Positions 12,873-45,041 of a stretch of DNA of 64,000 bases are shown piece after piece. The DNA lies in NCBI RefSeq assembly GCF_021917145.1, contig NC_061065.1, forward strand, positions 5,669,337-5,733,336, written 5' to 3'. Source of the DNA: Hypomesus transpacificus (Eukaryota > Chordata > Actinopteri > Osmeriformes > Osmeridae). Both the position numbers and the translations under genes were made by a program. Each line of letters begins with the position of its first letter. The first letter of the stretch is position 1. The notes beneath the pieces are model-generated. The model was not told the DNA's origin, did no database searches, and worked only from the letters and a program-made list of their open reading frames with translations.

Positions 12873-14165
12873 CGTTTTATCTCAGCAGAATTCGTTTACA
12901 AAGCTCACTTTTAAATAGTTTCATAGCATCTGTGTAGAATGTCATAACTATGACCATGTCTGCGTCGTTAGGATATGAGCAATAGGAGCAGAATGTATCC
13001 AAGCTCTGTCCCACTAAATATTTATGGACATAAGAGGTAGGCATGTCTCTTGAAGCTAAATGTTAATAAACATTTAGAGAGCTATACCTATTTGTTTCAG
13101 CTTTACTATTAAAAGGTAACAATTTTACAGCAAGAAATCATAAATTATTTGTCCAATTTCTTTTGCTTGAAATGTAAAAACACGCAGAAAGTTTATCGCA
13201 AGACCAATGTATGTGTGTTACCTGTGAATACCATGCATGTGAACATTTTAGTTTTCTGCATAAAAATAAATAAATGATATGTTCCCATCTGTGACGGTTT
13301 AAGCATGACCTGGTGATATGTTCACAGACATGGTTACAAAGTTATTAAGTAACTAAACAACTTTGATAAGACTGTTTGGAAACAAATGTTTTTCAGGAAA
13401 CAATAAGAAAGGCAGACTTAAAGTCCAGGAGACAAAGTGTATTTTATGGCACTAAATTTCATAATCACATTTTACAATGAAGTACAGGACAAAATAACCA
13501 TTGTCAAACCCGAATTAAATTATTAAATCAAATGTATTTTGGACAGACTATGTACTGTGTGGTGTACTGTACTGTAGTGCATCTGTAAATAATGGAATTA
13601 AAGTCCCTCTCTAACATGTGTTTGAGATTGTGTCTCACAGGGCGTTATGGGAAACTTTTCAGAGGACAACGTCTCCTATGTAGCCTGATCTCACACACAA
13701 CAGACTTTCATTCTCAGGGGGAGGTAATTACTCTCCTGAAGGCTCTCATGGCTCCAGTAGATCTGTTGTGCTGCTGCTTTACCAAATAATTGACATCATT
13801 AGAGAAAAACTGGATTGACTAAGATTTTATTGACTGGAATAAGAACAGAGATGGAAATTGTAGCAGGACATAGTCAGGGTACTGACTGTAGCAGGTCATA
13901 GTCAGGGTACTGACTGTAGCAGGTCATAGTCAGGGTACTGACTGTAGCAGGTCATAGTCAGGGTACTGACTGTAGCAGGTCATAGTCAGGGTACTGACTG
14001 TAGCAGGTCAGTTATCTGGAAGTCTGAAAGGGACAGCATTCGCTATGAGGGAAACATTACCAGTTTACTTCTGTAAAACGTTTTCCTCTAATCAATGTCA
14101 CTCAATACGAGAAGTTTAACATATCACAAGTGCAGACGTGACACCAATCAAATCAATAAATATAC
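12873..14165. other. nt5e 3' UTR and convergent intergenic region
   Basis: After the nt5e stop, AATAAA-type polyadenylation signals occur at about 13071-13076 and 13265-13274 on the + strand. On the - strand an AATAAA at 14171-14166 could end snx14. The two genes are convergent with about 1.3 kb between coding ends. A 28-bp tandem repeat lies inside (separate entry). Confidence 0.6.
13859..14010 (+). repeat. 28-bp tandem repeat, about 5.4 copies
   Basis: The unit TAGCAGGTCATAGTCAGGG plus TACTGACTG is repeated with almost no variation; the first copy differs by one base. It lies between the convergent 3' ends of nt5e and snx14. Confidence 0.95.
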
Positions 14166-14308
14166 TTTATTAGTGGATTACTTTACATTGGAATGTTGAT
14201 ATGGTCCCAGGGACATTAGCATTTGTTAGTGTACTGCAACTCTTTTTAGCTGACGAACATAGGGGGGCAGCTGTGCTTTAGATCCATTCACTCCTGTGAC
14301 CGGAGTCA

Positions 14309-14358
14309 CTCTGTCCACCAGTCTGTGGATTCACTCTGTCCACCAGTCTGTGGAAAAA
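14309..14358 (-). repeat. 25-bp tandem duplication carrying the snx14 terminal splice acceptor
   Basis: On the minus strand CCACAGACTGGTGGACAGAG and the next five bases occur twice in a row. Each copy begins with a CCACAG acceptor. Copy 1 follows a strong T-run and copy 2 lies 25 bp downstream. The acceptors enter the same reading phase but differ by 25 nt, so they give different C-terminal peptides: ending DWWTE with stop at 14331, or ending SEWI with stop at 14278. Confidence 0.85.
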
Positions 14359-17300
14359 AGAGACAGCCGTGTCAGTCCACAGCTAGTCCAGTAACATCTA
14401 TTGAAGCTGAGAATCCTTTCAGCTTGGTTATCCTTCCATAAAAGATCAATAATAGAATTATACGATAATACAATTAGACGTATGCATTTAGCGATGTCTT
14501 GAAAATAAAATAACACAGACCAATATTGTTAAAAGATTTTCACCTTGTTGAGCTCTGGGAAGAGCTCCTGAATAGCAATATCCAGCAGAACGTAAGTCAT
14601 CTAATGAGACCACACAGAAACACAAAACATTAGTTTGGGTTTTTATACAATTAGATGCTGGTGACATCCTCTTCAAAGTGCTCCCATCTTACCTGCTTGT
14701 TGAGCATTGGCTGCTGAAAGCCTTCAAACAGAAGCTTAATGCCTTCAAACTTGGCCTCCTCGCCAATGCACTTAACCACAATGTCTGCAGAAGGTTAACA
14801 GACAAGATTAAAAAGAAAATCCAAGTTAGAACTTTACAGATCTACTCTCTGATTTACCCAGTTCAATTGACAGATATGCAAGTGAGAGAGGGGTACTTTA
14901 AACAAAGGCATGTTTACTAGTATAATTTTTTAAACAGGGATTAGGAGCTATTAATGACATCCAAAATGGCGTCTGAGCAAATTAATCCATCGCCCACATC
15001 AACCATGGCAAAGCTCAGAACATCCACATATTACATGACACACAATGGAAGAACGGAGTGGAGAAAGGAACATTTAAAGTTTAATTTGAACCTGGCAAGT
15101 ATCTCATCATCTCTTCAAAGGTCTGTTTGGCTCTCCTCTGCTTGTCTTCTGTGTAGCGTTCTTCACTGTTCTCACAGAACACGGCATCTGAGACAAAACC
15201 TCACCATTAGTCTGAGGCACTGGGGAGGGGCTGACAGGGGAGAGTGCTACAAGGAGTCATTAGGACCAAACAGAGTGAGGAGTCACAGTAAAACACTTCT
15301 ATTGTCTGGGCCTCGGGCTGGATGGAAGGGAACAAGAATAATATTAACACCGACACTCTGAAGTGTTTGAGTGGGCCAGTTCAATTCCCGGCTGTGCCAA
15401 ATGACATAGTGTCCTTGGGCAAGGCACTTCACCCTACATGCCTCGGGGGGAATGTCCCTGTACTTACTGTAAGTCGCTCTGGATAAGAGCGTCTGCTAAA
15501 AGACTACATGTAAATGTAATGCCCCCATTCAAACACGCACATTAACCTTTGCTCTTTCACCGGATGATATTCAAACCGCTTTACCAGAGTTCACCACACA
15601 GGAACTCTGATGTCCCTGGTGTTTGAGAGGGATGCTCAGACCACCCACCTCTGAGCTGGGTGATGAGAGACACCAAGCGGTGCTCCTGGAGAATCCTTTC
15701 CAGCTTCATCTGCATGTACTGGTCCATGTACGCCTCAAATGTGTTCTTAAACAGGATCCGTGCTCCTGACAGGATGTGATGCAACCATTCCGGCATGTGG
15801 AACACTATGCGACCTGTCAGGCGACACAACTGTAGTGAAAGGCAGGTTCACCAACACAACTGTAGTGAGAGGCAGGTTCACCAACACAACTGTAGTGAGA
15901 GGCAGGTTCACCAACACAACTGTAGTGAGAGGCAGGTTCACCAACACAACTGTAGTGAGAGGCAGGTTCACCAACACAACTGTGGTGAGAGGCAGGTTCA
16001 CCAACACAACTGTAGTGAGAGGCAGGTTCACCAACACAACTGTAGTGAGAGGCAAGTTCACCAACACAACTGTAGTGAGAGGCAGGTTCACCAACACAAC
16101 TGTAGTGAGAGGCAAGTTCACCAACACAACTGTAGTGAGAGGCAGGTTCACCAACACAACTGTAGTGAGAGGCAAGTTCACCAACACAACTGTAGGGAGA
16201 GGCAAGTTCACCAACACAACTGTAGTGAGAGGCAGGTTCACCAACACAACTGTAGTAAGAGGCAGGTTCACCAACACAACTGTAGTGAGAGGCAGGTTCA
16301 CCAACATATCTCCCCACATTGATTACATGATTAAAGTTGTGATCTACTCCGGTGGAGGTGAACGATTTAGACCCTTTATGACTTGGATCTTATTAAAGTT
16401 AACTCTCACGGTCAAATCCAACCACAAAACGTTTGAAAAAGTGTTTGGATCACTTACCCACATACATCATGTAATCATACATTCCCTCAACTGTGGTCAT
16501 TTCCATAAAGTAGTTCTGGTTTTGCTTCCTCTCCACACTCTCAGACAGATTTGCATTGTTCCTGAACAGGTCGTTGAAGAGCTATAAATGAGGATAGCAG
16601 TACCAGTCATACAAACTCCTTCTCAATCATCTACTGTACTTTCTGAATGCGCTATTTGTATGTCAATTTGGGTCAAAGCGTTTGCCAAAAGGACAAAATG
16701 TAAATGTTGAGCCAGATGTAGTCAAGACAGATGATCAGTTTGTGAACAGGGAGTGGGATAAGATGGTGGTTGAAGACTCACCTTCTTATCATACTCGGTT
16801 GTGGGGCTGAGGATGGTCAGTTCTGGTCTGCTGGGTTTGGGCTTGGGTGACTCGCAAGAGTTGAAAAAAGACTGGATGAATGGTTCCAAATTCTGCCCTT
16901 TCTGGAACGAAGCATAGAGCAAATAGACCATGTGGAATAGAGTTGTGTTTCAAATCAAGACTCAAATTCATGTTTTTCATGCCAAACAGAGATACTGTAC
17001 TTGTTTTCCTACCTCTTTCATAAGCTTTCCAGGAACAGACTTGAAAATTTTACCTGCAGTTTAACAATTAGAGATAAAAAAAAAGATTACAGAAGAAAAG
17101 ACACAAATCAATTGTTCTCAAATGAATTGTCTTGGTGTTGTGCTGAACTGTACAGAGTTTTACCCAGATTAACATCAGGCAGCATCTTGTCCAGGAACTG
17201 AGATTCCATACTGTGTGGGGACAGGAAGTCAGCAAGAAGCTGGCTGTTACTCAGCTCTGGGTGCAGCAGAAGCCTCTGGATAAACACACAAGCATGGAAA

Positions 17301-20300
17301 CGCCTCCAAAAATAAGCACGTACAGTACATCAACATTCACACAAACATAGCCATGATTACTGTGCTTTGGTGGGAATATACCTGCAAATACTCCTCAAAC
17401 TCCTCCCTCTTAGAAGATAAGAACTCAACATTCTTTGGTCCAATTATTCTTTTGGAAGGAAGCTGTGCGTCTGCAAACGACCCTGTGTAAACAAATGACA
17501 GTTCTAATTCAATTCAGATCCACACCCAGGGTTTCCCGCAGCACTTTTCAGTCAAGGCGGCCGCCTAAGCAACACACGCCTGCTGGTTTTTGATAGCGAT
17601 ATCTGCCGTTGTCCTGTTTTCTCCCTTCCATTCCAAATAGTGACCAACGGCAGTCTCACTCTTCAGAACGCACCCCCCCTCCCCTCCCCTCGGCAAACCC
17701 AAAACACATTTTTGGCGGGGAAACCCTGCACATCTGTTAGAGAAAACAGATTGTGTGAAATGGAGTTGTGTTTCAAATCAAGACTCAAGATGAATGATTT
17801 TCATAAAAATTCAGTCAAAACTGAATTTGGTTCCTGGGTTAGATAAAAGGGATTATAAACACTTACCATGGAATTCAGTGAGTTTTGATTCTAGCACGTA
17901 GAATTCTAGATATCTCCTATAGATGGACCACTTTTCAGTTTCATGCCCCACTGAATGAGAAGAAAACAGTCACTCAGCCTCACACAGCCCACTCAGTATT
18001 TTCCCTCCATTATTTTACACAGCTTCTTTTTGGCTTCTCTCACCTTCCTTCCTGTCTTTGCGCTCCACGTCGATGCAGAACACAGGGACCCTCTCTCTCC
18101 TGGTCTCGTCGTCGTACAGGTCCACATAGGGGATGGAGATGCTCCAGGCAGACAGGTTCCTCAGGACCCCCGGGGTGCCGGCTGCTTCAGCAGGAGACTC
18201 ATCCTCCACAACCACTGTGGCCTCCTCCACCTGCAACACAGCAGGAGACACCAGGAGGGCTCAAGATGGACTTCAACTGTCATGTCCTCTGAGAGGCCAT
18301 TTGTTTTACAGTACGGAACATACAGACACATATTATACACAAAGTAAAAAAAAAACTATAATTTTAAGATTGTTTATGGCAGCCATCATAATATACAATA
18401 CATACATATAAAATACTTTGTTAGTGTTCTTAGGTAGAACACAAATTAGATTACAAAATACATGTACAAATTGGGATTTTTCATTTTTTTTTAAGCATTG
18501 AAAGGTTGAAAAAAACATTTCTACCAAAAAGTTTTGGGAAAAACTTTTCTATAAAATTATTTCGATTTTATTTTTATATTAAAAAGTTGAAAGAATATTT
18601 TGTGAGGAAGCACTCACCAGGTCTTCCTCTGCGTCGACCATAGCATAAGAGGGCAGCATCGCTCCTTCCAAGGTGTTGCTCTTGAACACTCCTTTGATTT
18701 TACTTCCAATCCTGCTGATTCCAAATGTCTCCCCCCGCTTTGATATGTTTCTGTACAAACACACAGTGACATTGAACATGTAACCTTCAGAGTTAGAGTT
18801 ACAACAAATAAACCAGAATTCTACTCTGATACCTTTACATCGTGTGCTGTATACAAATATATTTTGCATACTGAATTGAGTCTACTTTTATATTTTGGCT
18901 AGGGAGAGCAAACATGCCCAGCTGAGACAGAAATACAAAGATTGACACATTCTACCAATGCAAGCAGCAACTAGAACAGAAACACACAGGCAATGACTGG
19001 TACAGCTGCATATCATACAAGCCCATGCTTATGGAATGAGACAGGTCTAAACAGAAAACTGTTCAAGAAGTCTTGGGTTTCAATGTTGAGTGCAGGAGTT
19101 GAGTGCAGGAGTACAAGACGTCTTGTACTCGCTGTGAAATATTTTACTATTGATTGTTCTTCTACAGGTACAGTCCTGCACTTTTTTTTGTGGTTCATGT
19201 TGTTTGAATTTGTAACTTGTATAACTGCATGCTCTTATGGGTCTTCCCTTTTGGCACTTGTTTAGTTTTTTCACAATATATGCTTCATGTTTTGGCTGCT
19301 TGCAATGTTTGGGACTACCTCGTTGTTATGATCAGTGACCTATACTCTTTTGTAAAGCTCTCTCTTGGAAGTCGCTTTGGATGAAAGCGTCTGCTAAATG
19401 CATAAATGTAAATGTAGGAGTGCATGTTGATGTTGCCTTGTCCTTACGCAAGGCACTTCACCCTACTTGCCTCGGGGGGGAATATCCCTGTACTTACTGT
19501 AAGTTGCTCTGCTAAATGACTAAATGTAAATGTAGGAATAGGAGACCATGTCCCGCAGCAGGTAACTGGTGCTCATTATACACAAGACAACTATGGTACA
19601 AAGTACGACACACAAGGACAGACCACTGATAGACACAGAACATCAAGGGACGAGGAGAATTTCACAGTATGTGCATGACAGCCAGGTCCAAGGTCATCTT
19701 TCTCCCCTGTACACAGAACCTTCTGCGGCTGAAGCTTACAGTAAAGGGCCCTAGCATAAATATATTGTATGTTAGCTGGAATTAAAACTACTGTAAAAAA
19801 AAAAAAAGTAGATTCTAAGTCTAACGTGTTTTTGACTGTGTTTCGGGGGTTAAGATGTTTAAGGATGTCAGGATAAGGGCTTAGTCAGCACATAGTAAAC
19901 ATTCAAAACCCAAGCACTGACTCGCAAAAGCCCAACAGTTTAAGTAACTAGCACCAAATTGTCAAAAACAGCAGTTTGTTTCCTTTACTGCCATCCAGGC
20001 AATAACAGGTGCATGCAGCAAACCGGGCAGCCGGGAGACATTGACCTGCATCATGCCAAAACATACTTACCTCATATCATCGAAACTCAGGCTATTCCTG
20101 GAACAACAGGCACAGTAAATCATACAGTAGGTTGCCATGGCAAACACTGACAAAGGCTACAAATTGGCTGTTTTTTTACTTGGGGGGAACTTAGGGAATG
20201 CAGTGGCCATGAAATGTTACTTATTCCAACACACACAAAACAAGCTCCATTCTAACTTTGACAGAAATAATTAAATATTTCTGTACTTCATGGGGGAATG

Positions 20301-22980
20301 TGGAGGCCCTCCAGTGTCCTGTGGTTACCAACCTGCTCATTCTGGAGTTCCTGGTCGGAGACTCCACCCCTCTGAGGAGGTGCCTGAAGTACTGCACACA
20401 AACAAACACACACAGAGCTGTGGTCAACTTGAGAGCCTCTGCATTCACCCTGTGGTGATGTAGGCGGTCGCTACATCCCAGTTTTTGCCCTGGATGATGT
20501 TAACTTTGTGGCTTGGGCCTGTGTGGGTGTGGCCTGGGCCTGTGTGGGTGTGGCCTGGGCCTGTGTGGGTGTGGCCTGGGCCTGTGTGGGTGTGGCCTGG
20601 GCCTGTGTGGGTGTAGCCTGGGCCTGTGTGGGTGTGGCCTGGGCCGGTGTGGGTGTGGCCTGGGCCGGTGTGGGTGTGGCCTGTGTTGGTGTGGCCTGGG
20701 CCTGTGTGGGTATGGCCTGTGTGGGTGTGGCCTGGGCGGGTGTGGCCTGGGCCTGTGTGGGTGTGGCCTGGGTCTGTGTGGGTGTGGCCTGGGCCTGTGT
20801 GGGTATGGCCTGTGTGGGTGTGGCCTGGGCGGGTGTGGCCTGGGCCTGTGTGGGTGTGGCCTGGGTCTGTGTGGGTGTGGCCTGGGCCTGTGTGGGTGGG
20901 CCTGGGCCTGTGTGGGTGTGGCCTGTGTGGTTGTGGCCTGCGCCTGTGTGGGTGTGGCCTGCGCCTGTGTGGGTGTGGCCTGCGCCTGTGTGGGTGTGGC
21001 CTGCGCGTGTGTGGGTGTGGTCTGGGCCTGTGTGGGTGTGGCCTGGGCCTGTGTGGGTGTGGCCTGTGTGGGTGTGGCCTGTGTGGGTGTGGCCTGTGTG
21101 GGTGTGGCCTGGGCATGTGTGGGTGTGGCCTGGGCCTGTGTGGGTGTGGCCTGGGCCTGTGTGGGTGTGGCCGGGGCCTGTGTGGGTGTGGCCGGCGCTC
21201 ACCTCATCACTGTGGCAGAAAAGAGGGGTGAAGACTCCCTCCAGTAGAGACAGGACATGCTCGTAAGCTTCAAACAGGCAGCGCATGGTCTGCAACTGGA
21301 CCACGCCCATGTATGGACCCTGAGCAACTGGGAGGACAGGGATTATCACCGGGACGTCGTCCTGAGGGATTGGGACTTGTGATTGTGCTCAGTGTAGGTT
21401 GCTTACTGTTGCGTATTTCCTCTACGATGAAGGTGTCAAAGCTGATCTTGTCAATGCTCTCTTCCAAGCAATAGGTCTCATAGATGTGCTGCACCTCCCC
21501 ATGCAACCTCTGCAGCTCAGCATCACTCAGATCAGGAGACAGGATCTTGTCGTTGAATTCCTCTGGATGAAGTGATGCAACAGTTAACCACCGAACCAAA
21601 TGTTTCTTTCAGCATCATGTTGACGCATTTTTAAACGGTGTGACTCTTCAGCCCTTTCCTCACTATTGTTACGGAAGTCGTTAAAAAAATAGCATAGTAG
21701 CACGTGACAGCTGAGCCGTCGTGAGTTGAAAGGGAGTCCTGCTTAGTGAGGCAGAACTGCAGCACATGCACTTACCCACAGTGAGGCAGAACTGCAGCAC
21801 ATGCACTTACCCACAGTGAGGCAGAACTGCAGCACATGCACTTACCCACAGTAAGGCAGAACTGCAGCACATGTACTTACCCACAGTGAGGCAGAACTGC
21901 AGCACATGCACTTACCCACAGTAAGGCAGAACTGCAGCACATGCACTTACCCACAGTGAGGCAGAACTGCAGCACATGCACGGCCCCTTCGTGCTTCAGG
22001 AAGTTCATGAAGCGGAACAGTAGATCCTGCTGCTCTCTGATCTCCTTAAGCTCCAGCTTCAGAACCTAGACAACCATGGGGGGACGAGCAAGACAGGCCC
22101 GACTGCAAGTTAGTTGCTGAGACTAAACGACCAAAACATTAAAATGCCAATGTAATAATGATATATAATAAATATATATATAATATAATAATGATATATA
22201 ATATAATAATGATATATAATATAATATTGATATATAATATAATAATGCCATTCTTCCTGTGTGCTTGAAGCGAGGCGCGAGGCACGAGGCCTGCTCTTAC
22301 AGATGCCTTCTTGTTCCGTGGGTCAGCGTACTTCTGCAGGAAGGGGACCAGGGCAGAGGAAGGCTCACTGGCTGCTTCATGCTGAGAACACAGTAAAGAT
22401 GAGTTCCCATCCCACACCATCTCCACACGCCTGCCATGACATGACTGGAAAGTTCAACCTTTACTCACTGGACTGTCATCAATGAATATCAGCACCATGT
22501 GGTTCACGGTATCCTAAAAGGAAATGAATGCAATGTTTGTAAACATGACCTGCATTGGTTGACTGTCGAGACTGAGTTTGTACATCATTATTGTTACTTC
22601 CATATACAGTATATTAGATGGGTTCTGCTTACTGGGTCGGCCATGAAGTCCATAGTGGGGAGTATCACAGAGCCTGTCATAACCTCTCGCAGTAATAAAG
22701 ACAGAGACCTGGAAAAACGTGCAACAAGATGTTCTGTTATCCATTCAGGGACACTTGTCAATAAAACCCCAGCAGGAGTTTATTTCTCATCCAGGTCTCA
22801 TGTGTCGCCTACCTGCAGTCAGTGGCTTTAGGGGGCATGACATAGTTAAACAGCATCTCTGTCAGCTTCCTCAAATAGAGAAGCTCATCTCTCCTGCTGT
22901 GGAGAGCCACATGCAGGTCTGGGCCATACTCCTCCAGAGCAGCCTGCTGCAGACTCTCTGAGCTCCTCACTGGTGTGTGG

Positions 22981-23069
<89 letters not shown>

Positions 23070-24882
23070 CGAGAGAGAGAGATAAAGGTAAATACATTCA
23101 TATTTATATTGCATACCCTACTAATGTTTTGTAAAGATTGAAGAAAAGAAAAAAGAAAACCTTTTCCCCAGGCTTTTGATATTATTTCTATATGCTTCAT
23201 GGTCGCCTTCATCATTTTACCAGCAACAACCGAGGGGACATCCACCTACAGAACACAAATTCAATGTTCATTTTTACATTCATCTACACACCTCATGTGT
23301 AAATATTGTTGTTACATCTGGATGAAATGAAATGGGAAATGAAAGGCTGGTTCATCTGAGAGAGCAGGTTGCTCACCTTCTGAGCTCGTCGAATCATAAC
23401 GGCCGCAAAGAAACGTAAGGTCATTCTAAGTTCATCCACGCAGGCCTCATCATCTGTTATGTCCCTGAGAAGTGGAGAGAAGCAGAGTTCACTTCACGTT
23501 GATGCTCATCATCATCCCAAAAATATATAAATCAAGCTGTATTATTCATCTCACCGATACCAAGGATACACAAAGTTTTCCAAAACCAACTCAAGCACCT
23601 GGAAGGGACATAACAAATAAAAATTAATCAGAGAATCAGAATCAGAATCAGAATGGGATTTATTTGCCATGAAAGTTTGCACAGACAAGGAATTTGCTTT
23701 GGCAGGAAGGTGCATACAGTAAACATATAGGAATCTTAAATTTAAATATGTGGTCTAACTATACTAAGGATACATAAACTAGCAATACTAAGTGGAATAC
23801 AATTAAAATAAAATATACAATAATAAAATATAAGTTGCCAAATCTGTGCATACATTCAGTTATTGACTGGTTACTGGTGAGCTAAATAGTATCTCATAAT
23901 CTGCTGTTGTACCTCAGATATGGAAGAGTCCACTTTTGAGCATACTTTTAAGCCCAACCATGGTTGATAATTTTCAAGAAGTAACGTAGGTCTGCAAAAG
24001 TGCAATGCATTTCCAAAATTAGAGCACATCACTGTCCGCAGTGATGCATCATGACCACTAGAGCGAAATTAATGCAAAATACCATCCGTATCTGGTCAGA
24101 ACTGTACACATTCCTACCTGTGCCGTTTGCACTTGACTTTCCCACACACTGCACAGCTGTGCCCCGATGGAAATAGCTCCTGTAGTTCCTCTTTCTGCAG
24201 AATTAAAGATACATTCTTAAAATTAAGACGGCTGAATCCTAGAACAAGCTCATTAGAAGCTGTTTTACATTGGCCATGACTACAGGCAGTGGCTGCCACT
24301 GTTATTTATATCAAGCTTTCTGAAGCTTAACCCCAATCCACACCAACATCTTTACACCGATGTGCATTTTAGGACTTAATTACTCCTGTTATGCCCCGAA
24401 TTCATGTGTTTTTCCAGTGTATTATTAAAATTGTCTTACAACAAATGTCTTACTTTGTGTCTAGGCTTTATAGTGAGGAGGATGTTTGGCAGCAGGGATT
24501 CGGGGCCAAGGGAGCAATAGAATGTAATCAGCCCAGCCAGGAAGGACCAGAACACCATCAGAATGTGTAGATACCTAATAAAACATTAGAACCGGAGCAA
24601 GATCAGACACAGCCACTGTTATAACATCCAGGATCTAAATAATCAGCCACTTTTTGTACGTAAAGGCATTGTAACTGTATTGTATTTCTATCTATCTCGG
24701 GTAAGAAGCGCATAAAAAAAGATAATATTCTGAAGAAGAGCTCACCGGTTGAGAAGTATAGTTGACGAAAGCATAAACATCAGAAGAAAACAAAAAACTG
24801 GATATTGACGGAGAACTTCTCTCAGGAGGTCAATCTTCAGTGTTTTTTCCAGATTCTCCATATTTGTTCGTATATTGGCCAT
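14331..24882 (-). CDS. snx14: Sorting nexin 14, 29 coding exons, about 941 aa
   Basis: ER-anchored sorting nexin that works at ER-lipid droplet contacts; human loss causes a recessive cerebellar ataxia. Coding exons, high to low: 24882-24746, 24574-24454, 24194-24118, 23991-23913, 23598-23555, 23464-23377, 23245-23161, 22969-22813, 22708-22633, 22513-22469, 22381-22301, 22065-21951, 21562-21407, 21327-21203, 20391-20333, 20097-20071, 18750-18618, 18230-18044, 17950-17867, 17482-17382, 17275-17164, 17053-17013, 16901-16782, 16581-16458, 15813-15649, 15187-15092, 14784-14693, 14600-14544 and 14347-14331. The first 28 give 928 codons in frame; human is about 946 aa. Two hydrophobic segments (about 28-43 and 47-68) form the membrane anchor. 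Next come a Cys motif (CAVCGKVKC), a PXA domain (about 120-290), an RGS-like domain (about 330-462), a PX domain (about 555-680, with YRRYLEFY) and a C-terminal nexin domain (about 790-915). The last residues are uncertain because the terminal acceptor is duplicated; using 14322 instead moves the stop to 14278. Several exon ends touch tandem repeats. Confidence 0.96.
15374..15522 (+). mobile_element. SINE fragment in snx14 intron
   Basis: It starts within the box B region (CCAGTTCAATTCCCGG), then has TTGGGCAAGGCACTTCACCC, a GGGGGGAATGTCCCTGTAC block and the tail AAGTCGCTCTGGATAAGAGC followed by TAAATG-type repeats. The same body and tail occur at 29305-29499. The 5' tRNA head is mostly lost. 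Confidence 0.8.
15824..16306 (+). repeat. 30-bp minisatellite, 16 copies, abutting an snx14 exon
   Basis: The unit CACAACTGTAGTGAGAGGCA plus GGTTCACCAA is repeated 16 times with few substitutions (A for G in GGCAAG, one GTGGTG, one GTAGGG). It begins within about 10 bp of the snx14 acceptor at 15814. Because 30 is divisible by three and the unit lacks stops in several frames, it creates long repetitive open frames on both strands; these are not genes. Confidence 0.97.
16307..17000. other. snx14 introns with a weak SINE-tail remnant
   Basis: Besides the two snx14 exons listed for that gene, a degenerate SINE tail (GGTCAAAGCGTTTGCCAAAA, then AAATGTAAATG) is seen at about 16671-16705. Nothing else is recognised. 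Confidence 0.4.
17529..17735. mobile_element. Short hAT-like non-autonomous element in snx14 intron
   Basis: The ends CAGGGTTTCCCGC and GCGGGGAAACCCTG are near-perfect inverted repeats about 200 bp apart, a pattern typical of hAT-type MITEs in fish. The interior is GC-rich without coding capacity. I could not confirm an 8-bp target duplication. Confidence 0.6.
19109..19130. repeat. 22-bp perfect palindrome
   Basis: GAGTACAAGAC is followed directly by its reverse complement GTCTTGTACTC, with no spacer. It lies in an snx14 intron near a T-rich stretch and upstream of two SINE tails, so it is probably part of an older mobile element. Confidence 0.8.
19352..19535 (+). mobile_element. Two SINE tails in tandem, snx14 intron
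   Basis: The first piece (19352-19419) has GGAAGTCGCTTTGGATGAAA, then GCGTCTGCTAAATG. The second (19436-19535) has GCAAGGCACTTCACCCTAC, the GGGGGGGAATATCCC block and CTGCTAAATGACTAAATG. Both match the SINE family at 29305-29499, each truncated at the 5' end. Confidence 0.75.
20505..21196 (+). repeat. GGCCTG-TGTGGGTGT minisatellite, about 690 bp
   Basis: Units of about 12-18 bp built from TGTGGGTGTGGCCTGGGCC vary in length and sequence. A higher-order block of about 93 bp is duplicated (about 20695-20787 and 20788-20880). The array ends a few bases from the snx14 donor at 21202. Long Gly/Val/Cys or His/Pro/Thr open frames across it are repeat artefacts. Confidence 0.95.
21744..21985 (-). repeat. 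35-bp minisatellite made of an snx14 exon end plus its splice donor, 7 copies
   Basis: On the minus strand the unit GTAAGTGCATGTGCTGCAGT plus TCTGCCTCACTGTGG is repeated in tandem. The copy farthest upstream in transcription is the real 3' end of the exon 22065-21951; the others lie in the following intron. Each copy keeps the GG|GTAAGTG donor (one or two have a base change). 35 is not a multiple of 3, so using a later donor would shift the frame. Confidence 0.9.
22141..22250. repeat. AT-rich tandem repeat
   Basis: Units of ATAATGATATATAATAT are repeated about five times in an snx14 intron. Confidence 0.85.
22983..23083 (+). repeat. (GA)n microsatellite
   Basis: About 100 bp of GA dinucleotides with a few GC interruptions near the right end. 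On the snx14 strand it is a CT tract that ends about 14 bp before the exon acceptor at 22970, so it forms an unusually long polypyrimidine tract. The Ser-Leu frames across it are artefacts. Confidence 0.95.
23626..23860 (-). mobile_element. LINE-like 3' end with ATTCTG tail, snx14 intron
   Basis: Read on the minus strand, the piece ends in CAAATAAATCCCATTCTGAT and then ATTCTG repeats, a common 3' terminus of fish non-LTR elements. It contains the typical block AAATTCCTTGTCTGTGCAAA. It is 5'-truncated with no coding frame left, and the family is not assigned. Confidence 0.65.
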
Positions 24883-28624: not shown

Positions 28625-31600
28625 CTACTTCCACTGTTGCCCAAAAGAATCCTGATAAAACTCCTGGTTGTCAGATTTGTAACCATAGTTACCAGTATGA
28701 TCACCACCTTGTAGCGGTTGCTGAGCAATGGGTTGAGAGCCCCAGTTCTGATTATTGGTCTGGCGTCGTTTGGAATCTGGCTGGTTGTACCCATCAGCTT
28801 TGCGCTTTCCTCCTACATTTCCACCGCGGCCACCCCTTGCACCACGTACCCCGCGGCCTCTGGGCTGCACGCCTCCTCTGGCACCTCGCACGCCTCTGCC
28901 TGCTCCTGGACCCCCTCCGCCTCCTCGCTGGGAGAAGCTGGCCCTGCCACGGGGAGCACCCACGCCCCGACCCCGGCCTGAGGAGCCCCCCCGGGACACT
29001 CTGCCCCCTCTCCCTCTGCTGGGGGCCTGAAAGTCATCGTAGCTGTAGTAGGGATCCTCGTATCCACCGCGGTAGTTGTGATAATCATACCCATAGTAGT
29101 CATGGTAATCCTCATAGCCGTAGTAGTCGGGGGGGTAAGAGTACCCGCCCCTCCCACCACCTCTACCACGCCCCCTGGAGGGAGGAGGCATGTGAGGAGG
29201 ACCATAGTAATAGTAATCTTCATATCTGTGGGAGACAAGCAGAGGAGAGACAACGCCACAAGCGAGATCAAGATACTGGACGTGGTTTGCACTAACACAG
29301 AATGGGAGTCAGATGGCTGAGTGGTGAGGGAGTCAGGCTAGTAAATCAGAAGGTTGCCGGATAGATTCCCCGCCGTGCTAAAATGACGTTGTGTCCTTGG
29401 GCAAGGCACTTCACCCTACATGCCTCGGGGGGAATGTCCCTCTACTTACTGTAAGTCGCTCTGGATAAGAGCGTCTGCTAAATGACTAAATGTAAATGGC
29501 AAGTTGGAAGTTGAACCCATTTCTTACGTTGGTGCTTTGGCTGCTTGTCTCTGGGCTTTACGTTCCTTCCTTTTCTGATCAGGGGGCTTGGCAAACACTA
29601 TTTCTATGTGTTCTCCCTCCAGATCTTTACCATTCATTTCATCTAATGCCTGTGGAGAGAGGGCAACAAGAGAAACGTAATGCGTCACACATTCCATGTC
29701 TTGCAGGCTTTGAAAGTGTGTTGTATTTCCCCACCAAAGCAGAATATCAGGGTATGCTTAATACCTTGACTGCACCATCCCTTTCCTCAAAGTGAATAAA
29801 GGCATAATCTTTCAGTTTCTTCACTCGCTCCAGCTTCCCAAACTGGCTGAAGGTTTGTTCAAGTATTTCTTCAGTAACACTGTTCGCGAGGTTGCGGACA
29901 AACAAAACTTTGACCTGTTGGTTTGAAACAAGACAGGAAAACAAAAAAAACAAAAACTGTAATCAAAGATTAAGAGTTAAGGCATTTCACACTGTATAAC
30001 TATTCCCTGAGCTTCAATTTTAGATGAAGCTTACACAGAATACAACGTGAAGCAACTGTTGAACAAGTCAAAATACATATTCCGTGTCCCTACACAATGG
30101 GGCCCTTTGATTTAAGGAAAGCAGCTAAATGAACACCATGTTATGGTTCCTCCTGCTCCTCACCACATTTTAATCAACAGCCGGCTCTGGTTTACCTTGG
30201 CCATGACGTCTGGATCTGGGTCCTCTATGGGGTCAGCCCATTCCACCGTGACCACGTTCCCCCACACCTTCACTTTGCCACTCATGAGCCTACGGCGGGC
30301 CTGGGCAGCAGTTTTATGGTCTTCGTATTCCAGAAAGCAAAAACCTCTGTTCTTTTTCTTGTCGTCGGGTTGATGGTACAGTATGACATCATTAAGTCCC
30401 TCTGCGTAGAAGGGTTAGGAAAGGGGTGAGTCTGTTTCATGTTCATTACTAATATGAACTAGAGATCTTGAAATAGGGAGTCTTCAAAAGACAGCTCTAA
30501 AATGGTATGGGTTCCTTACCTGTAACTTTAGCAAATTCCTCCACAATCTGCTCTTTTGTTTTACTCTTCGGGATGGAGCCGACAAATAGCCTGTTATTGG
30601 CTACTGAAATACAAACTCCAATGTGCTTTCCAGGTCGAATTTCGTTATTATTACACTGTTGACAAAAGCAAATACATGACTGTGTGACTTCCTGAACTTC
30701 AAAAGGAAGTGAAATGTGACCAAGAGCACAGAAGACGTGAAAAGGAACCAGCCAAACACCATGTCTAAATTAGGCATTGAGCTTGCATCTTAACGATCTA
30801 CCGAACAAACCAGAACTGGAAGATTAAGGCTTGTTGAGACACTCACAAGTTTCACCGCCTCCTGTGCAGCCTCTTTAGTGCAGAAAGTGACAAAAGCGTA
30901 GCCTCTGTTGAGGCCGCTGAGGGGGTCCATCATCAGCCTCAGATCCCAGATAGGCCCCGCCTTCTCAAAGAGAGGCACCAGCTCATCCTCAAACAGGTCT
31001 CGTGGAATCTTCCCTACAAATATCTGGAAAGAAAGAGCAATTCATAAGAAACCGTCAGCTGATCGTGAAGTGGTCTAGGATTACGTAAAGGAGACTGAAG
31101 TGATTTGGTGAGAGCACTTCAAAAGTATTTCAAGTAAGGAGTTCAAAGTTAGGAAGGTTTCATTTGATCCAAAGAACACTGCATCCTCTTTATAACTAAC
31201 TGTTCATGACAAGTTGTTATCTGCACAGGCAGATTTCGTCCACCTTAAAACCAGTCAGATCTAGGCAGCAACCTCTCAACGTAGCGAGTGTTTCACTCAA
31301 GGGGGTCAGATGGCTGAGAAGTTAGGGACTCGAGCTATTAAATCAAAAGGTTGCCTGCTTGCCTCTGAGAGAATGTCCCTGTACTCACTGGAAGTCGCTC
31401 TGGATAAGAGCGTCTGCTAAATGACTAAATGTAAGTGTTTTTCCAGGAGAACAAGAAAGTCACCATAAAGCAGAGGAGGTCGGCAATCAACTGTCGTTTT
31501 CATCACAACGTCTGTGCAGAACCATACCTCTGTTCCAACAGTGGGCTGCGCCCCTGAATACACCGACTCTGGTGGTGGGTCACCGTATTTCCTCTGACCT

Positions 31601-34761: not shown

Positions 34762-35745
34762 CTGTGTCACAGAATGTGAATGGAATGTGAATAAAATGAA
34801 TATCAAATTATATAAGAATTCAGAAACAGAAGACTTGCCCGACTCTGTTGTGAAGATAAGTAAGGTTCCACATGTGAGAGATTGTTCAGTCTTTGGGTGA
34901 TGTCAGTAACCCCATCACCTCTCGGTGTAGGCCTACTCATAAAGGGCCTGACTACAGCAACCTAAATAATTCGCTTGAATTTAATGCTAAGTAATATCAT
35001 CAGTGCGAAAATAAATCAAGTGGAATTTAAACACCACCTTTCTGTTTACGTTGCCCTGCCGACTCCATGTGGTCTTAGTGTGGCAAACCTGGTTCCTGGA
35101 ATAACCAACTGTGCCAGTCTCCATGGATGGTTCTTCCTGCTCCAAACGCAACATCGTGACATGTAAAGACAGCATTTCCTAAGAATATCTCCATTATAGT
35201 GGTGCTTATAAGTCTACAGCAATTAAGAGTTACTTTATGCCTTTACTAGTTGGCAGTGAATCATCCTTTACCTGAGGGTCATTAGTCTCCATCTATGGAG
35301 CTCTGAGTTGTGGAATTATACAGTTAAGTAATTAATATTAACAATTAGGCTACCGTGAAATGTGCTGCAAGTTAAAACCCAATCGTGTAGACTGCACTGC
35401 ATTCTTGACATTCGGGTAGTAAAATGGTTACTATGATGTCACAATGCTTTCCATCAAACATTGAACACACCACCCACAAAATGAAAACAAGCAGATAACT
35501 TAAAATATATTTATTCAGGGGAATAATTTACAGAAACAAGAACCACTTACAGTTCCATCGTTGTTGCATTAAATACATCTAGAGGCTTGTGTAAAGTATC
35601 ATGAGACCACTGGCTCATTTTCTTTTGAAAGACTGACGACATCCTGAGTTGAATCAAGTCACCACCTGTTAAAATATACATAGTTGGCATTAATTTAACA
35701 CCGACACAACTTTCATAAGAGGTCAGGAAATGTACTGCACATCAG

Positions 35746-35812
35746 AAATCAGATCCTTATAAACCATTTCATTCACATGAAATCAGGTTCGGGATAAAGT
35801 CATCACATCAGT
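35746..35812 (-). ncRNA. snord50: C/D-box snoRNA SNORD50 (U50), copy 1
   Basis: Box C GTGATGA at 35806-35800, guide plus D' TATCCCGAACCTGA (D' CTGA at 35786-35783), a C'-like GTGAATGA at about 35776-35769, and box D CTGA at 35752-35749. Flanking GTATACT and AGTACAT can pair as an external stem. The guide core TCCCGAACCTGA is the U50 family signature, complementary to 28S rRNA, where it directs 2'-O-methylation. It lies in the last intron of the SNHG5-like gene. Confidence 0.9.
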
Positions 35813-36219
35813 ATACCTCGGGTGTGCAAGAAACTTGGTAAACTTACTTGAATTTCGACGGGGCATCTAAGCTTCCATCCTGGCTGGAGATAATTAAAAA
35901 CAATTCATTAGATTTCCTCCAACCAAAATCATGATTATGGTTTTGACCATGATCCTGGTAGATCTGACAATTATCAATCCCTAGGCTGATTAGTCTGGGT
36001 ACATCACAGGAACCAGTTTTTTTTTGTAATTCTTGAATTTAACTGTACAAAAAGGTGGAGATCTGTCACGGTACTGACTACTTTGCTGTGACCCTTAATT
36101 GGTTAGTAGATCGACGACATAAAGGCTACATGGAACATATGTAGGAATCAAGACTTCAGTCAACGCTAGGAAATATAAAGTAGAACACCAGGATATGTTG
36201 TTGCAAAATTGTATTTCAG

Positions 36220-36282
36220 AAATCAGATCCGATAATGTTTTCAGTCACAGTTATCAGGTTCGGGATTTTGTCATCCTCAATA
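36220..36282 (-). ncRNA. snord50: C/D-box snoRNA SNORD50 (U50), copy 2
   Basis: The guide plus D' is AATCCCGAACCTGA (D' at 36257-36254) and box D CTGA is at 36226-36223. Box C reads AGGATGA, one base away from consensus RTGATGA. The 3' part (GGATCTGATTTCTG) is shared with copy 1. Two copies in one host gene match the human arrangement SNORD50A and SNORD50B. The variant box C may weaken this copy. Confidence 0.85.

Positions 36283-37481: not shown

Positions 37482-45041
<7,560 letters not shown>

Follow-up and report, generated by a model that had tools for sequence, protein, structure and literature searches.

Variable number tandem repeats (VNTRs) that overlap the splice donor of a coding exon are a kind already known from the human genes ABCA7, CBS and IFI6, and we describe here a new member, a 35-bp array at the end of exon 12 of snx14 in the smelt Hypomesus transpacificus, lying within a window of 64,000 nucleotides (contig NC_061065.1, positions 5,669,337 to 5,733,336). 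In ABCA7, the GT of the exon 18 donor forms the first two bases of a 25-bp VNTR; one-unit retention amounts to 2 ± 1% across tissues, independent of VNTR length, and longer VNTRs are associated with reduced expression and increased exon 19 skipping (PMC5954066). The CBS VNTR has a 31-bp unit, is designated c.1444_1467+7(16_21) and is polymorphic in people, with 16–21 units (PMC2630376), and in IFI6 the downstream minisatellite units act as donors (PMC4526556). For the smelt array we found no description in the literature searched, with most subscription journals outside the reach of that search.

The array at the exon 12 donor of snx14

The gene model and the array at its twelfth exon comprise the following features, numbered from the first letter of the window.

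14241–24882, minus strand: snx14 coding region, 29 modelled exons, phases consistent
21951–22065, minus strand: snx14 exon 12, 115 nt, RGS domain; its final 31 nt are repeat copy 0
21563–21950, minus strand: intron 12, 388 nt measured from donor 1, 182 nt of it outside the array
21407–21562, minus strand: snx14 exon 13, phase-consistent model
21745–21981, minus strand: 35-bp minisatellite bridging the boundary between exon 12 and intron 12 (Tandem Repeats Finder, TRF: 6.8 copies, 97% matches, score 453)
21745–21770, minus strand: remainder of the final unit, in which the exon end recurs a seventh time without a donor, sequence CTCACT then AAGCAGG

A 35-bp tandem repeat on snx14 had been proposed from the letters of the window (the original prediction), and both TRF and the lag-35 identity of the array confirmed it, the latter at 0.970 compared to a maximum of 0.459 in 2000 mononucleotide shuffles (lags 5–119). 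The array sets in with the last 31 coding bases of exon 12, repeating exon end and donor together, and its overlap with the donor of a coding exon places it among splice-donor VNTRs. We counted seven exon-end copies of 35 bp each on the minus strand, spanning 21985 to 21745, so the sevenfold amplification announced by the prediction stands for exon ends and fails for donors, of which there are six, the seventh copy having none. Five donor modules, and not six, are therefore extra; GTAAGTG, expected in every unit, was found at five donors, and the remaining one reads GTAAGTA. Copies 0, 2, 4 and 5 are identical across all 35 bp, copies 1 and 3 have a C-to-T change in common, and copy 3 carries one further change. 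The change shared by alternate copies hints that the array may have grown by two-unit steps, and units so nearly identical suggest that it is young. Elsewhere in the 64-kb window, the exon unit had no match at up to 9 mismatches.

The identity of the gene, its RGS-domain exon, the exon end and the donor had all been named correctly, as judged from the gene model and Pfam. Exon borders of the model were set by eye, and 14241 is the cut-off picked for the last exon, not a demonstrated end. With exon 16 omitted and the last-exon acceptor at 14347 used, the product of the model is identical, letter for letter, to a 932-aa database record, 'sorting nexin-14 isoform X2 [Hypomesus transpacificus]' (P0001). 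A Pfam scan of the model protein found PXA, RGS, PX and Nexin_C domains which, together with close SNX14 relatives, identify it as a member of SNX14, and its best PDB matches are SNX14 PX structures (the matches carry no species; we take them to be human). Exon 12 begins after residue 330, and the Pfam RGS domain covers model residues 336–463. Exon 16 itself (20071–20097, 27 nt) is skipped in the H. transpacificus record P0001 and in records P0005 and P0006, and is present in the remaining smelt records.

The six donors are spaced 35 nt apart, with the following positions and computed outcomes.

21945–21950, minus strand: donor 1, GTAAGT, frame kept; G of GT at 21950; the junction of 7/7 smelt records
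21910–21915, minus strand: donor 2, +35 nt, frameshift, 391 aa; G of GT at 21915
21875–21880, minus strand: donor 3, +70 nt, frameshift, 401 aa, GTAAGTA; G of GT at 21880
21840–21845, minus strand: donor 4, +105 nt, in frame with an internal TAA, 392 aa; G of GT at 21845
21805–21810, minus strand: donor 5, +140 nt, internal TAA, 392 aa; G of GT at 21810
21770–21775, minus strand: donor 6, +175 nt, internal TAA, 392 aa, the final donor of the array; G of GT at 21775

All six share the core TGG followed by GTAAGT, and each scores 7.63 when judged by a matrix of the remaining 27 donors, close to the leave-one-out median of 7.88 for the donors of the gene. By U1 pairing energy, the array donors reach −11.4 kcal/mol (donor 3, −11.7) and rank second of the 28 donors of the gene, after that of exon 16. 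The two measures thus disagree on absolute donor strength, and both give near-equality among the six, so that the equal strength across units expected of a splice-donor VNTR was found for every unit except the donor-less seventh copy.

The computed products of these donors, all obtained with the upstream last-exon acceptor, fall into two classes. Donor 1 gives a protein of 941 aa and is the only one to keep the protein frame without an early stop, whereas donors 2–6 lead to stops at 391–401 aa, 1,643–1,780 nt upstream of the last junction, and their products would keep little of the RGS domain and nothing of PX and Nexin_C. A stop upstream of exon junctions usually triggers nonsense-mediated decay, and transcripts from donors 2–6 would be targets of it. 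The truncation and decay-prone transcripts that the original prediction foresaw from downstream donors are thus borne out as computed products. Its statement that each step shifts the frame applies to steps 1, 2, 4 and 5 (the successive shifts are 2, 1, 0, 2 and 1); at +105 the frame is restored, but an in-frame TAA follows, which is the donor's own gTAA met in the shifted frame. Scripted arrays with 1–12 added consensus units ran into a stop at 391–401 aa every time. As added units bring either a frameshift or a stop over this modelled range, the array could lower snx14 output and would not diversify the working protein.

Choice among the six donors

The junction made by donor 1, between LTV and EEFND, is present in all seven smelt SNX14 records (one from H. 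transpacificus, three from Osmerus eperlanus and three from O. mordax). These records are annotated gene models, which favour open frames, and for this reason they count as weak evidence for donor 1. Among the best 120 of 1,654 relatives, 118 have the EEFN junction and one has EELN, with no readable junction in one. Truncated SNX14 records from a downstream donor were sought with the tail sequence that donor 3 is predicted to yield, and the array peptide occurred in 0 of the 114 proteins found; 101 of these show EEFN, nine have an unreadable junction and four carry other post-junction peptides (P0121, P0122, P0226 and P0230). Two Mastacembelus records (P0222 and P0224), which first seemed a 95% match to the donor-3 tail, proved to have an ordinary EEFN junction. 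Over the best 120 relatives and all 114 proteins found with the tail, array-encoded peptide was absent from all 234 listed proteins, among which such transcripts would hardly show.

Experiments on identical donors provide a second line of evidence. In exon-defined minigenes with two identical donors, Carranza, Shenasa and Hertel report exclusive use of the upstream donor; they describe the upstream donor as preferred when the upstream intron is short and the downstream intron long, and the downstream donor as preferred for exons with short introns, below about 250 nt, under intron definition (PMC9225289). In snx14, intron 11 measures 235 nt, and intron 12 measures 388, 353, 318, 283, 248 and 213 nt from donors 1–6, respectively. 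Because intron 11 is short and intron 12 extends over 388 nt from donor 1, this rule favours donor 1, with some conflict.

Taken together, the identical-donor minigenes and the human ABCA7, CBS and IFI6 VNTRs lead us to predict dominance of donor 1, with a small leak whose transcripts would decay. We therefore read the locus, with moderate confidence, as a six-donor minisatellite at which the spliceosome nearly always takes donor 1, a small leak to the other five yielding early-stop transcripts. The array would have grown as the exon edge was duplicated in tandem, within a fish lineage rich in such repeats; donor 1 would win by lying closest to the acceptor of exon 12 itself and giving the shortest exon; and donors 2–6 would be rarely used decoys, their transcripts removed by nonsense-mediated decay. 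Copy number probably differs between fish, and variation of the array between individuals is plausible. As to the strong splice-site competition that had been envisaged, the evidence favours otherwise: the donor-1 junction in seven of seven records, the minigenes of PMC9225289 and the 2 ± 1% retention in ABCA7.

Much of this evidence would also suit an array that is a pure passenger, with donor 1 alone in use and the repeat serving as neutral intron sequence from which nothing leaks. The donor-1 junction in all seven smelt records, the lack of array peptide in the 234 listed proteins and the exclusive upstream choice in minigenes (PMC9225289) agree with such an array, but human VNTRs of like anatomy do leak, at 2 ± 1% in ABCA7 and through downstream units serving as donors in IFI6 (PMC4526556), and we regard a wholly silent repeat as possible and as the less probable outcome.

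A number of observations weigh against a leaky but dominant donor 1. The smelt records, for one, are gene models with a bias to open frames. Donors 5 and 6 lie only 248 and 213 nt from the acceptor, with an intron 11 of 235 nt, and so come under the intron-definition rule, the cut-off of which, about 250 nt, is human and may not hold in fish. When growing transcripts with more than one donor were folded, donor 1 was the most open in just 3 of 10 foldings. At the far edge of the array, an acceptor-like AG scores 7.59, compared to 4.89 for the true exon 13 acceptor (matrix without exon 13). Lastly, tandem repeats are error-prone in assembly, and the true allele might differ in copy number or possess just one donor; the units show differences among themselves, however, and the array is sharply bounded at both edges, its flanks being unique sequence on either side, which makes an artefact of this sort very improbable.

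The short introns would also support a different outcome, in which the donor nearest the acceptor is preferred, much of the snx14 RNA is early-stopped and carriers have a partly silent gene. Donor 6 leaves an intron of 213 nt next to an intron 11 of 235 nt, within the range below about 250 nt in which PMC9225289 reports downstream preference, and zebrafish without snx14 are viable (PMC7427099), so such a loss could be tolerated. We consider this unlikely: the smelt records keep donor 1, use of donor 6 makes an exon of 290 nt, and the 388-nt intron measured from donor 1 belongs to the upstream-preferring class in PMC9225289.

RNA folding was considered as the cause of a preference for donor 1. 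All 24 full-length foldings gave donor 1 the highest predicted openness of the six, frequently by a small margin, and without the array its value is 0.43; the full-length foldings speak for donor 1 and those of growing transcripts against it, and accessibility does not decide the choice.

The array also forms a possible rival site on the acceptor side.

21738–21739, minus strand: acceptor-like AG at the far array edge, first base after the AG at 21738

The sequence at this AG is CTCACTAAGCAG, and its joining to donor 1 would give an intron of 212 nt and a product of 419 aa. It could be a second route by which the array spoils transcripts; we treat it as a lead only, since the acceptor matrix comprises 26 sites (each tested acceptor being excluded from its own matrix) and the smelt records use the true acceptor. 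Every unit also holds CTGCAG then T, and with units that thus supply acceptors as well as donors, and an edge AG scoring 7.59, parts of the array could in principle be spliced as small introns, as a step to intron gain. The CAGs of the intronic units score 1.36–1.90 against 4.89 for the true acceptor, and the array sits where an intron already begins; we give this reading a very low probability.

One productive and five unproductive outcomes would likewise fit a regulated poison switch, in which donor choice tunes snx14 output or the six U1 sites alter splicing or 3'-end choice. Longer ABCA7 VNTRs do accompany reduced expression and more frequent skipping of the following exon (PMC5954066), but the near-identical units point to an array that is probably young, and regulation of this kind seems to us quite improbable.

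Loss of SNX14 causes ataxia in people and dogs, mouse embryos die, and zebrafish are viable (PMC7427099, PMC5002145); in dogs, cerebellar degeneration has been associated with a mutated SNX14 splice donor (PMC5002145). Given the viability of zebrafish without snx14, fish may tolerate the array, and a leak could persist. With six donors of equal core 35 nt apart, one productive and five unproductive, the locus is a natural test of spliceosome choice among equals, which donor use per copy would measure.

Other repeats at snx14 splice sites and neighbouring loci

Two acceptors of snx14 are also amplified.

15824–16306, minus strand: 16 acceptor-like units of 30 bp, the array stopping 11 nt short of the exon 25 acceptor (first exon base 15813)
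14302–14354, minus strand: duplicated last-exon acceptor, 25 bp, first exon bases 14347 and 14322

The 30-bp unit reads CCTCTCACTACAG then TTG, and 15 of the 16 units outscore the exon 25 acceptor (0.18–3.49 versus 0.2 on a gene-specific matrix without exon 25); the true acceptor is the one used in all seven smelt records, joining YVG to RIVF. Duplication of the last-exon acceptor gives two alternative C-termini, the second being TGGQSDSGHRSEWI. In O. eperlanus, two of three records have the second-style C-terminus and one has the first, and the first style is found in all three O. mordax records and in the Hypomesus record. With both C-termini among O. eperlanus gene models, the duplication is likely older than the split between the two smelt genera, placed near 24 million years ago (PMC12083275). 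The same paper gives a tandem-repeat content of 14.61% in H. nipponensis, compared to 3.26% and 5.83% in two other fishes, which makes repeats at exon edges less surprising in a smelt (PMC12083275).

Further repeats in and around the gene include a 28-bp tandem array (13859–14010, 5.4 copies, 99% matches) a little downstream of the snx14 stop codon and a 687-bp low-complexity minisatellite of TGTGGCC/GGGCC units (20507–21193), which takes up most of intron 14 from about 9 nt past the exon 14 donor. UnaL2 matches, to the 3' element of a long interspersed nuclear element (LINE), lie on the plus strand at 15456–15509, in snx14 intron 25, and at 29438–29491.

All four snx14 arrays with units of at least 20 bp have a splice site no more than 11 nt away, which random placement reproduced in 0 of 20,000 trials when no exon overlap was allowed and in 1.1% when an overlap of up to 35 nt was. 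For all TRF arrays in the gene, five of eight lie within 17 nt of a splice site, with random values of 0.1% (no overlap) and 11% (overlap up to 35 nt). The distance limits were set after the data had been seen and the array just past the stop codon was left out, so that enrichment of arrays at snx14 splice sites is suggestive only. We raise as a doubtful extension that smelt minisatellites may nucleate on splice sites and that the exon 12 array may be a heritable dial on snx14 output, each unit adding a poison donor and lengthening intron 12 (182 nt without the array, 388 nt with it); growth would then carry the intron across the line of roughly 250 nt between intron and exon definition, and copy number would decide between first and last donor. 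An array and two amplified acceptors in one gene may make smelts good material for the study of repeats at splice sites.

The neighbours of snx14 in the window are presumably syncrip and nt5e. Pfam found RRM_1 in one of two syncrip pieces and no family in either of the two nt5e pieces scanned. Matches to the small nucleolar RNA SNORD50 occur on the minus strand at 35739–35813 and 36213–36282, upstream of the gene read as syncrip, a setting reminiscent of the human SNHG5–SYNCRIP neighbourhood. A plus-strand frame at 38418–38747 matches Mad3/BUB1 homology region 1 and is likely part of a bub1-like gene.

Comparison with human donor repeats

The snx14 array differs from IFI6 in the fate of its downstream donors, which in the human gene give described isoforms and in the smelt gene lead to an early stop. 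A 1995 paper by Turri reportedly presents the IFI6 (6-16) minisatellite as a provider of multiple donors. CBS is another gene, and its likeness to snx14 is claimed for anatomy, not for sequence: going by the name of its VNTR, 24 coding and 7 intron bases are repeated jointly, in units of 31 bp compared to 35 bp in the smelt. ABCA7 offers a further parallel, as its intron 18 VNTR, like the snx14 array, starts at an exon donor, and its second-unit donor leads to a frameshift and an early stop. The ABCA7 repeat is intronic and has been genotyped at 12 to about 427 units, whereas the snx14 unit, known from one sequence, includes 28–31 coding bases and the array presents six donors.
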